In this document: one piece after another, positions 32,474 through 35,420 of the stretch
Layout: every line of letters starts with the position of its first letter
Position numbering within the stretch: position 1 is the first letter of the stretch
NCBI GenBank assembly: GCA_016841185.1
Contig: JAENZQ010000021.1
Coordinates: 1-61,383 of the forward strand
Length of the DNA: 61,383 bases
Direction: 5' to 3'
Source: Anaerovorax odorimutans
Lineage (GTDB): Bacteria > Bacillota > Clostridia > Peptostreptococcales > JAAYPU01
Notes under the pieces: model-generated
The model's input: only the letters and a program-made list of their open reading frames with translations
What the model was told of the DNA's origin: nothing
The model's database searches: none
Position numbers and translations under genes: made by a program

Positions 32474-33667
32474 TTATTCAATAACAGATGTTACAACTCC
32501 GGAAGCAACCGTTCTTCCGCCTTCTCTTATGGCAAATCTTAAGCCTTCTTCCATTGCAATGGGTGTAATCAATTCGATGTCCATTTTAATGTGGTCGCCA
32601 GGCATACACATTTCCGTGCCTTCCGGTAATTTTACGGTTCCTGTAACGTCTGTCGTCCTGAAATAAAACTGCGGTCTGTATCCGTTAAAGAACGGTGTAT
32701 GCCGTCCGCCCTCTTCCTTTTTCAGTACATATACCTGGGCATTGAATTTTGTATGGGGTTTGATGGTCTTTGGTGCTGCAAGTACCTGGCCTCTTTCGAT
32801 TTCTGTTCTTTGTACACCTCTTAAAAGTACGCCTACATTGTCTCCGGCCTGTGCCTGATCCAACAGCTTTCTAAACATTTCTACCCCTGTTACAACTACT
32901 TTTCTTGCTTCATCCGTCAGCCCTACGATTTCTACTTCATCCTGTACTTTCAGTACGCCTCTGTCTACTTTTCCTGTTGCTACGGTTCCTCTTCCTGTAA
33001 TGGAGAATACATCTTCCACAGGCATCAGGAACGGTTTGTCCGTATCTCTTTCCGGTTCTGGTATATAGGAATCCACCGCTTCATAAAGCTCTATGATTTT
33101 ATCTCCCCATGGGCCTTCGGGATCATTCAATGCTTCAAGAGCAGATCCTCTGATTACAGGTGTATCGTCTCCGGGGAATTCATATTCATCAAGAAGCTCT
33201 CTTACTTCCATTTCTACCAAGTCTAATAATTCTTCATCATCTACCATGTCACATTTGTTCAGGAATACTACGATGTATGGAACACCTACCTGTCTGGATA
33301 ACAGAATATGTTCTCTTGTCTGAGGCATGGGGCCGTCTGTGGCCGCTACCACCATGATCGCACCATCCATCTGGGCGGCTCCTGTAATCATGTTCTTTAC
33401 ATAGTCCGCATGTCCCGGGCAGTCTACATGTGCATAGTGCCTGTTCGGTGTTTCATATTCTACGTGTGCTGTAGATATGGTGATACCTCTTTCTTTTTCT
33501 TCCGGTGCTTTGTCGATTTCATCAAATGCGATTGCGTTTCCAAGTCCGTATCTTAAGTGTAATGTTTTTGTTATCGCTGCTGTCAGTGTTGTTTTGCCGT
33601 GGTCTACATGTCCTATTGTTCCAATGTTTACATGGGGTTTGTTTCTTTCAAATTTTGCTTTTCCCAT
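32474..33667 (-). CDS. tuf: Elongation factor Tu, copy 2
   Basis: Same 397-residue EF-Tu as copy 1, with [18 protein letters not shown] and NKCD. It forms a unit with tRNA-Thr (53 bases upstream) and is closed by a 20-bp terminator hairpin. In B. subtilis this position, between sigH and rpmG, has no tuf. Identity with copy 1 starts at the shared spacer and ribosome-binding site AGGAGGATTAAAAA and ends a few bases past the stop, beyond which the flanks are unrelated. Confidence 0.98.
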
Positions 33668-33719
33668 TTTTTAATCCTCCTTAGCAAAATAAATGAAAAA
33701 AAATATACAATATATTAAT

Positions 33720-33796
33720 TGGAGCCCATGAGCGGATTCGAACCGCCGATCTCCGCCTTACCAAGGCGACGCTCTAACCTGCTGAGCCACATGGGC
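33720..33796 (-). tRNA. tRNA-Thr (GGT)
   Basis: A complete cloverleaf on the minus strand: acceptor GCCCATG pairs with CATGGGC, D arm GCTCAGCAGGTTAGAGC, anticodon loop TTGGTAA giving GGT (threonine), T arm with GGTTCGAATCC. The discriminator is T and CCA is encoded (33722-33720). It is presumably co-transcribed with tuf, a tRNA-tuf linkage seen in several bacterial groups. Confidence 0.96.
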
Positions 33797-33810
33797 ATTA
33801 AGTCGATCCC

Positions 33811-33845
33811 GGCTTTTTAAACATAAAAAACGGCTTTAAAAAGCC
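33811..33845 (-). promoter_or_regulatory. Two mutually exclusive hairpins ahead of tRNA-Thr
   Basis: On the minus strand GGCTTTTTAAAGCC folds into a short stem followed by GTTTTTTATG, a terminator shape (for sigH or as an attenuator). The same GGCTTTTT (33845-33838) can instead pair with a downstream AAAAAGCC (33818-33811), an 8-bp stem with a 19-base loop that would disrupt the terminator. It lies only about 20 bases past the predicted start point of the tRNA-Thr-tuf promoter. Confidence 0.6.
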
Positions 33846-33871
33846 AGAAACCTGTATATTTATCGCTACTT

Positions 33872-33900
33872 ATTGTACTATTAACCACAAATCCTGTCAA
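33872..33900 (-). promoter_or_regulatory. Strong sigma-A promoter for tRNA-Thr-tuf
   Basis: TTGACA (33900-33895), 17 bases, TACAAT (33877-33872) on the minus strand. It lies about 50 bases past the sigH stop and about 75 bases ahead of the tRNA, as expected for a highly expressed stable-RNA/EF-Tu unit. Confidence 0.85.
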
Positions 33901-33951
33901 CAATAAATATATACTGCCCATCATAGTATTTTTAAACAATTTTTAGAAATT

Positions 33952-34602
33952 TCAGTATCTGCGATTCTCCACATAGGCCTCGAGTTTTCTCTTAACGCGC
34001 TGAAGTGCATTATCAATGGATTTTATAGGTTTGTCCATATTCTCGGCAATTTCCTGATAAGATTTACCCAGCAGGTATTCTCTCAAAACTTTCCATTCCA
34101 GTTTACTTAAAGAACCGGCAACTTTTGATTCTATGTAATCGATCTCTTCTTTAAAAACAATAATGGTCTCCGGATCAGTTACTTTTTCCGAGGAAAGCAT
34201 GTCCATCAAGGTTCTCTCCGAATTTTCTTCATAAATGGGTTTGCTTAATGATACATAAGAATTTAAAGGAATATGTTTTTGCCGTGTGGCGCTTTTAATG
34301 GCTGTTATAATTTGCCGGGTGATACACATTTCAGCAAAGGCTTTAAAGGTTGCCAGCCTGGATTCGTCAAAATCCCTTATGGCTTTGAAAAGTCCAATCA
34401 TTCCTTCCTGTATGATATCTTCTCTATCTGCACCGATGAGAAAATATGCTTTTGCTTTGTTTTTAACAAATTTTTTATATTTCTGAATCAGTGATTCTTC
34501 TGCATAAACGTTGCCTTGCCTTGCAAATTTAACAATCTCTTCGTCCTTGAATTCGGTATAATCGATTAATTCATCCCTTACAAAAGATATGGTTTGGTCC
34601 AC
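33952..34602 (-). CDS. sigH: RNA polymerase sigma-H factor
   Basis: Sigma-H directs transition-state and early sporulation genes. The product has region 2 (GADREDIIQEGMIGLFKAIR) and a region 4 helix-turn-helix (LLGKSYQEIAENMDKPIKSI). I prefer the GTG at 34602, six to seven bases after GGAGGG, giving 216 residues; an ATG two codons earlier abuts that site and a further ATG at 34629 has no site. It lies after rae1 and before rpmG-secE, as in B. subtilis. Tandem Spo0A boxes lie just upstream. Confidence 0.94.
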   Translation of the reverse strand: MDQTISFVRDELIDYTEFKDEEIVKFARQGNVYAEESLIQKYKKFVKNKAKAYFLIGADREDIIQEGMIGLFKAIRDFDESRLATFKAFAEMCITRQIITAIKSATRQKHIPLNSYVSLSKPIYEENSERTLMDMLSSEKVTDPETIIVFKEEIDYIESKVAGSLSKLEWKVLREYLLGKSYQEIAENMDKPIKSIDNALQRVKRKLEAYVENRRY

Positions 34603-34648
34603 CCTCATCCCTCCTGAAATTCTCACCATTATTTCATTCTATTCATTT

Positions 34649-34665
34649 TGTCGAAATTTGTCGAA
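34649..34665 (+). promoter_or_regulatory. Tandem Spo0A boxes upstream of sigH
   Basis: TGTCGAA occurs twice on the plus strand (34649-34655 and 34659-34665), each in the context TTTGTCGAAA, exactly 10 bp apart. This matches the 0A-box consensus and the one-turn spacing bound by Spo0A dimers. The pair lies 47-63 bases ahead of the sigH start, downstream of the promoter at 34697-34725 and just upstream of a possible TAGAAT -10 at 34641-34636. Confidence 0.75.
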
Positions 34666-34696
34666 AACGCTCAAACCCATTGCAATAAGTATATTT

Positions 34697-34725
34697 ATTA
34701 TACCTTAAGGTCCTATAATCGTCAA
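34697..34725 (-). promoter_or_regulatory. Sigma-A promoter for sigH
   Basis: TTGACG (34725-34720), 17 bases, TATAAT (34702-34697) on the minus strand. The -35 overlaps the stop codon of rae1. Transcription would start near 34690, placing the Spo0A boxes about 25-40 bases downstream of the start, a repressing position if they are bound. Confidence 0.8.
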
Positions 34726-35252
34726 TGATTATTCTTCTCCTTTCTCCATTCCTCTAACTTTTTTACAATTTTTTTATCAATTCTGTCACTTAAAACATAC
34801 CTGGAACTGTTAATTGCCTCTGTTTTCTTGACAATTCTCTTGATATTATCTTGAATTTCAATGAGAAGCTCCCTTGCTGAAAGTCGGGATGCACCGCTTC
34901 CCATCACCACTTGCTGCTCAGCCCAATCCGAAGTTGCAACTCTTACTTCATTCAGTCTTTTCTTAGCTAATTCGGAAGCTTTCATTTCTATAAAAGAATC
35001 AGCCGTTTGATTTTCTTTCGTATAAACAACATGAATTCCTTTCACATTTAATTTTCTATCATTCTCGCTTTTGACCTGATGTGCGTCAAAAATAACCCAG
35101 ATATCCTGACCCGTAAAAACCTTATAGTCTACAAGCATGTGGACCAGTTGATCCCGCGCATCCTCCAATGAACTCTTTGCAAGCTCCTTCAATACCGGCC
35201 AGGCATTTATTATATTATATCCATCGATAAGGAGATACCGTTTCAATGACAT
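34722..35252 (-). CDS. rae1: NYN-domain ribosome-associated endoribonuclease (YacP/Rae1)
   Basis: The 176-residue product has a PIN-like NYN domain: LLIDGYNIINAWP, WVIFDAHQVKS, then ENQTADSFIEM and VRVATSDWAEQQVVMGSGAS, supplying the acidic active-site residues. In B. subtilis the orthologue Rae1 (YacP) cleaves mRNA in the ribosomal A site. Its place between rlmB and sigH is the conserved Firmicute context. The tail is lysine-rich (KKIVKKLEEWRKEKNNH). Confidence 0.9.
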   Translation of the reverse strand: MSLKRYLLIDGYNIINAWPVLKELAKSSLEDARDQLVHMLVDYKVFTGQDIWVIFDAHQVKSENDRKLNVKGIHVVYTKENQTADSFIEMKASELAKKRLNEVRVATSDWAEQQVVMGSGASRLSARELLIEIQDNIKRIVKKTEAINSSRYVLSDRIDKKIVKKLEEWRKEKNNH

Positions 35253-35257
35253 TCACC

Positions 35258-35420
35258 CTTTATTGGTTTATAGATTATAGATTATGGTTTATGGATTATA
35301 GTCTACGGATTGTCATAATTCCTAATATTATATCTTAATTAGCTCATTTTTGGTTTTGCCTTGCAAAACTTTCCTTAACTATTATCTGTTATCTGCTTAT
35401 CTACCTACTTATCTTGTCAA
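35258..35420. repeat. Heptad element D between rlmB and rae1
   Basis: 7-bp-period units TATAGAT, TATAGAT, TATGGTT, TATGGAT, TATAGTC, TACGGAT are followed by a hairpin GTTTTGC-CTT-GCAAAAC (35353-35369), then TTAACTA, TTATCTG, TTATCTG, CTTATCT up to the rlmB stop. The right half resembles the right half of element B. Confidence 0.7.

Follow-up and report, generated by a model that had tools for sequence, protein, structure and literature searches.

The exact 10-bp repeat of the word TGTCGAA found ahead of sigH in the spore-forming clostridium Anaerovorax odorimutans probably serves as a true operator for Spo0A~P within the gene's untranslated leader, and its likeliest effect, judging from its placement between a sigma-A-type promoter (P1) and sigH, would be to lower sigH transcription. 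The repeat lies in a stretch of 61,383 nucleotides (contig JAENZQ010000021.1, hereafter the window), in which the features of the locus are arranged as follows.

33952 to 34602, - strand: sigH, with the likelier GTG start; the open frame extends to an ATG at 34629.
34610 to 34615, - strand: Shine-Dalgarno sequence AGGAGG of sigH, read from the sequence.
34636 to 34664, - strand: possible promoter P2, TCGACA-17-TAGAAT, with its -35 within box 1 and box 2 in its spacer; not clearly kept in the nearest relative in the set, G001.
34647 to 34666, no strand: putative Spo0A operator, an exact 10-bp tandem repeat with both boxes inside; the sole perfect tandem of the genome.
34649 to 34655, + strand: 0A box 2, TGTCGAA, the sigH-proximal box.
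34659 to 34665, + strand: 0A box 1, TGTCGAA, the P1-proximal box.
34697 to 34725, - strand: P1, sigma-A-type promoter TTGACG-17-TATAAT, with a start inferred near 34690; it recurs ahead of sigH in relatives.
34722 to 35252, - strand: upstream gene, whose end overlaps the P1 -35; no NCBIfam match.

The identity of sigH is supported by the SigH model TIGR02859, which the protein matches with 324.7 bits (cut-off 294.8). Translation more likely starts at the GTG 34602-34600 than at the ATG 34629, since AGGAGG (34615-34610) sits 7 nt ahead of the former, and the block from the Shine-Dalgarno sequence to the GTG is identical in G001 (19/19 positions). The upstream gene appears to resemble yacP (YacP/NYN-like).

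On the coding strand of sigH the repeat reads TTCGACAAATTTCGACA. The first-pass annotation had described two TGTCGAA words exactly 10 bp apart, and this was confirmed: the words start at 34649 and 34659 of the + strand, forming a tandem of the TGNCGAA core with the start-to-start spacing of a Spo0A operator, and they constitute the only perfect TGTCGAA tandem at this spacing in the 3,562,057 bp (3.56 Mb) of the whole genome. When one mismatch is allowed, four places in total are found in the genome, compared with one for the reversed-pattern control. From the 221 single copies of TGTCGAA, about 0.007 same-strand pairs at exactly 10-bp spacing would be expected; since one 10-bp duplication could have yielded the second box, the sigH pair is not strictly the product of two independent events. 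The exact form alone is informative, because the pattern with three mismatches is equally common in shuffled sequences (4 matches in the window against 4.5 expected), and the number of single TGTCGAA words in the window is ordinary (9 against 5.9 expected). In the genome, both TGTCGAA (221 against 790 for the reversed word) and TTTGTCGAAA (9, two of them at the sigH operator, against 40) are rarer than their reversed forms, which may be explained by their CG content; as the reversed words lack CG, this rarity was not taken as a sign of selection.

The other TTTGTCGAAA sites include some (L226, L228 and L233) upstream of a large membrane/sensor-like gene, a LexA-like gene and a response-regulator-like gene, all named by eye. 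Across 98 genomes (this genome and its relatives) the tandem has 18 matches in 13 genomes, some of them overlapping, compared with 5 for the reversed pattern. Among these genomes, G003 carries triple tandem boxes at two places (L095, L110), G029 and G007, which belong to two genera, have a tandem ahead of LysM-type genes (L098, L099), and in G077 a tandem stands ahead of a spoVT-like gene (L105); these gene names were also assigned by eye.

The factor that would read such a repeat is encoded in the same genome. A single Spo0A was found (TIGR02875, 407.9 bits, cut-off 200), and its C-terminal DNA-binding domain, conserved in this protein, aligns end to end with 1lq1, the stretch SRVERAIRHAIEVAW being identical. 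The genome also encodes an AbrB-like protein of 80 residues. Its score against the AbrB-family domain model TIGR01439 equals the cut-off (28.3 bits in both cases), and it stays below that of the SpoVT model; it is called AbrB on account of its size and likeness. A perfect TGTCGAA, of which about 0.009 are expected per 150-nt leader, is present in the abrB leader of this genome, where it follows a promoter-like sequence, and another one in the spo0A leader (L005, 2290-2340), where it overlaps the -10 of what we take, by the sigma-H consensus, to be a sigma-H-like promoter.

The form of the operator was derived from the abrB leaders of the clade, that is, from the 30 loci listed out of 67 genomes with a match. 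TGTCGAA was found within 150 nt in 26 of these 30 leaders, the reversed motif in none, and one of the four leaders devoid of the word is masked. Moreover, all 26 box-bearing leaders follow the pattern TGTCGAA-WWW-TGT, with a TGT exactly 10 bp on, whereas TGT occurs at 117 of the 4371 positions of the same leaders, operators included. Because of this recurrence, the Spo0A operator of the clade very likely has the form TGTCGAAWWWTGT, which can be used to find more Spo0A targets. The sigH site matches TGTCGAAWWWTGT, and its spacing equals the TGT spacing of the 26 abrB operators. The earlier proposal that the boxes have the arrangement bound by a Spo0A dimer is supported by this geometry, which is that of the abrB leaders, and by the closely similar Spo0A DNA-binding domain encoded in the genome, and the repeat is very likely a Spo0A site. 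Not every expected Spo0A target shows the motif: in this genome, the leaders of spoIIAA and spoIIGA lack a 10-bp tandem even when each box may contain one mismatch.

The conservation of the operator was followed in 80 sigH loci, comprising the window, 78 further matching genomes and one named MAG (L012). Two loci (L010 and L011) were left out of this set because their leaders exactly duplicate the G001 and G002 leaders, as were 19 of the 98 genomes, which gave no sigH match at 1e-40. A broader class set consisted of 106 of 268 matching genomes, mostly the better-scoring ones, and the start of each leader in the relatives was set by alignment to the window protein rather than by a start codon. 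Ahead of sigH, exact TGTCGAAWWWTGT is present in 2 of the 80 loci, namely the window and G001 (reversed control 0); with one mismatch it is found in 4 (control 0) and with two in 14 (control 1). In the class set no exact match was detected ahead of sigH in the 106 loci (control 0) and none with one mismatch (control 1), and two mismatches give 7 of 106 against 5 for the control.

At the same place G001 reads TGTCGAAATTTGTCAAA, with 16 of the 17 operator bases unchanged (the automatic alignment scores 15/17 owing to a gap). Around it, window and G001 agree in 22 of 29 columns from the -35 to the -10 of P1, in 28 of 32 from the -10 to the box and in 19 of 30 from the box to the Shine-Dalgarno sequence, and 25 of the 49 fourfold sites of sigH are identical. 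In G002, a member of the same family, the operator is absent from the sigH leader; this genome is not a clean test because its sigH runs off the contig, and its best match to AbrB has 41% identity, no close AbrB having been found there. Conservation of both boxes in relatives, by which the initial reading was to be judged, thus gives a mixed picture, the boxes being kept in G001 and absent in G002, with the truncation just mentioned.

Single TG[T/A]CGAA words were found in 17 of the 80 sigH leaders (reversed control 1/80); 11 of them lie in the upstream gene, 3 within TTGACGAA, 1 elsewhere between genes, and 2 are the operators themselves. In the class set single boxes are not enriched, as they occur in 1 of 106 leaders against 9 for the reversed control. 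Within the loci compared, the operator ahead of sigH is lineage-restricted.

The promoter has a different distribution. Two promoter-like pairs in 221 bp are within chance by consensus alone (shuffles 0.9, sd 1.1), and P1 is supported because its match recurs ahead of sigH in relatives: a P1-type promoter matching at least 10 of 12 positions is present within 200 nt ahead of sigH in 63 of 80 loci and in 100 of 106 class loci, compared with 5 and 6, respectively, in mononucleotide shuffles. Compared with the operator, the sigH promoter is much more widely distributed. The first bases transcribed from it (34668-34696 of the window) look conserved, with ATACTTATTGCAATGGGTT in the window and G001, a close form of it in G002 and other forms, for example ACATAATTTTTGGGCA, elsewhere. 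A structured or known RNA in the sigH leader was considered and rejected, given that the fold of the leader does not surpass that of shuffled sequences (z 0.43; 128 of 200 did equally well or better) and that a tRNA is the sole Rfam match over threshold in 33600-35400.

Taken as a site, the repeat is very probably bound by Spo0A, considering the agreement of both boxes with the operator form of the clade. From P1, with a start presumed near 34690, the operator would fall at about +26 to +42 of the transcripts; a Spo0A~P dimer bound there would also cover both the -35 of the possible P2 and its spacer, so that plentiful Spo0A~P would be predicted to lower sigH transcription. The operator lies 31 nt past the -10 of P1, which places the boxes downstream of a sigma-A promoter, as in Spo0A-repressed leaders of the abrB and spo0A Pv type. 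The first-pass annotation had taken the position downstream of a good promoter as suggesting repression, and the layout does seem to fit repression best; this mode is our first choice because an operator downstream of P1 may act as a roadblock and a dimer bound over P2 should hinder the polymerase. Several findings count against a repressive Spo0A operator: it is absent in G002 and in the other compared loci (2/80, 0/106), it stands 31 nt from the -10 at sigH compared with 14 nt at abrB and is oriented the other way, no tandem is present ahead of spoIIAA or spoIIGA, the pair could be one duplication, and sigH is not among the genes named as changed in a C. difficile spo0A mutant in the available portion of PMC4028888.

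The opposite sign has also to be weighed, in which Spo0A~P would activate sigH from the possible P2 through both boxes, forming a direct positive loop. P2 matches the consensus at 10 of 12 positions with a 17-nt spacer, the sigH boxes are reversed in orientation relative to the abrB boxes, and one weak box in the spoIIGA leader of this genome has the same orientation as those at sigH. A Spo0A-activating operator is centred near -40, and in spoIIG-type sigma-A promoters activated by Spo0A the boxes are found at or just upstream of the -35. At P2, in contrast, they occupy about -36 to -20, and with an operator centred near -40 the start of an activated transcript would fall near 34617, next to the Shine-Dalgarno sequence (34615-34610). 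Moreover, the P2 -10 is weaker in G001, and the number of promoter matches in the sigH leader region is within chance. Activation from P2 is judged unlikely because the boxes cover the -35 and the spacer of this promoter and do not lie at the -35 or farther upstream, and the earlier suggestion that the second -10 (34636-34641) could be the activated one is not upheld, given this overlap and the weaker -10 of the relative.

The remaining explanations concern whether the repeat matters at all, and to whom. That the boxes bind Spo0A yet have a weak or conditional effect, the tandem being a young duplication that strong selection does not yet maintain, is improbable to about the same degree as activation from P2. 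This would agree with the confinement of the operator to the window and G001, with the exactness of the 10-bp duplication and with the modest control of sigH elsewhere, as judged from C. acetobutylicum, in which sigH rises two-fold and never above three-fold in sporulation according to the available part of PMC2530871; it agrees poorly with the retention of 16 of 17 bases in G001, where half of the sigH fourfold sites have changed. Less probable still is a purely fortuitous pair of words, although the pattern with three mismatches is no rarer than in shuffles and nearly all relatives lack the operator: about 0.007 exact pairs are expected genome-wide, and the single pair present sits ahead of sigH and recurs there in G001. 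Equally slim is the chance that another regulator uses the site, for instance CcpA at the overlapping stretch TTTGAGCGTTTTCG (- strand), which resembles what we take to be the consensus of a cre site; the CG core of this stretch is absent from G001, where the Spo0A form is kept, and the Spo0A consensus was drawn from the abrB leaders of this very clade.

If repression by a Spo0A~P operator is assumed, a circuit can be outlined. Rising Spo0A~P would remove AbrB, which would free sigH as in B. subtilis; sigma-H would then raise spo0A, and high Spo0A~P would finally cap sigH directly. The first-pass annotation had envisaged a direct loop that dispenses with AbrB, and this does not apply here, where an AbrB-like gene is present whose leader carries a Spo0A-type operator. 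In this lineage Spo0A might instead influence sigH in two opposing ways, lifting AbrB, which would presumably control sigH, and blocking sigH directly. Such an arrangement would be an incoherent feed-forward loop, in which sigma-H would rise in a pulse or level off at a ceiling, and it would have arisen when a widespread sigH promoter gained a 10-bp tandem operator; it is put forward as a tentative proposal, with the odds somewhat against it. If true, it would mean that the Spo0A/AbrB/sigma-H wiring has been rebuilt in single lineages with its parts unchanged, and that direct control of sigH exists beside the AbrB route and does not just replace it.

Among known systems, direct Spo0A binding ahead of sigH has already been reported for C. 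difficile, in which the Spo0A DNA-binding domain binds in vitro to DNA upstream of sigH with a perfect box at -78 (PMC3485338, available part). The authors tied this binding to the absence of AbrB (PMC3485338; restated in PMC7643835). In the same species, sigH is transcribed from a sigma-A promoter (PMC7438776), and the changed genes named for a spo0A mutant in the available portion of PMC4028888 are sigE, sigG, sigF and sigA2, sigH not being among them. The accessible text of PMC4885068 and PMC4690370 contains nothing on Spo0A control of sigH, and a literature search with most subscription papers outside its scope returned no paper title on the present lineage. The likeness to C. difficile consists in a perfect TGTCGAA ahead of sigH (at -78 there; in the present leader at -63 and -53 relative to the GTG). 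The two differ in that the present leader has two perfect tandem boxes and that, whereas no AbrB exists in C. difficile according to its authors (PMC3485338), an AbrB-like gene with a Spo0A-type operator is found here.

The indirect route named in the initial reading, in which Spo0A of B. subtilis represses abrB and thereby raises sigma-H, is supported by the available part of PMC12090719. In the same species a roadblock is reported for abrB, and the 0A boxes downstream of the spo0A sigma-A promoter may work in this way too (PMC12090719); in C. beijerinckii mutations in a putative 0A box ahead of abrB accompany strain degeneration (PMC9871927). With the abrB operator, both of B. subtilis and of 26 of the 30 abrB leaders listed here, the sigH site shares a box pair 10 bp apart and a location downstream of a promoter, promoter-like in the case of this genome and corresponding to the roadblock in B. 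subtilis (PMC12090719). It differs from that operator in being inverted relative to transcription, in having two perfect boxes and in lying farther from the promoter (31 against 14 nt past the -10, the abrB -10 having been chosen automatically and being unreliable in several rows). The analogy between abrB and sigH is one of kind, not of detail. The spo0A Pv/Ps region of B. subtilis offers a further likeness, since there too the leader of an early sporulation regulator contains 0A boxes past a sigma-A promoter, and a roadblock is proposed; the boxes there are also upstream of a sigma-H promoter (PMC12090719), whereas the possible second promoter at sigH is of the sigma-A type and covered by the boxes.
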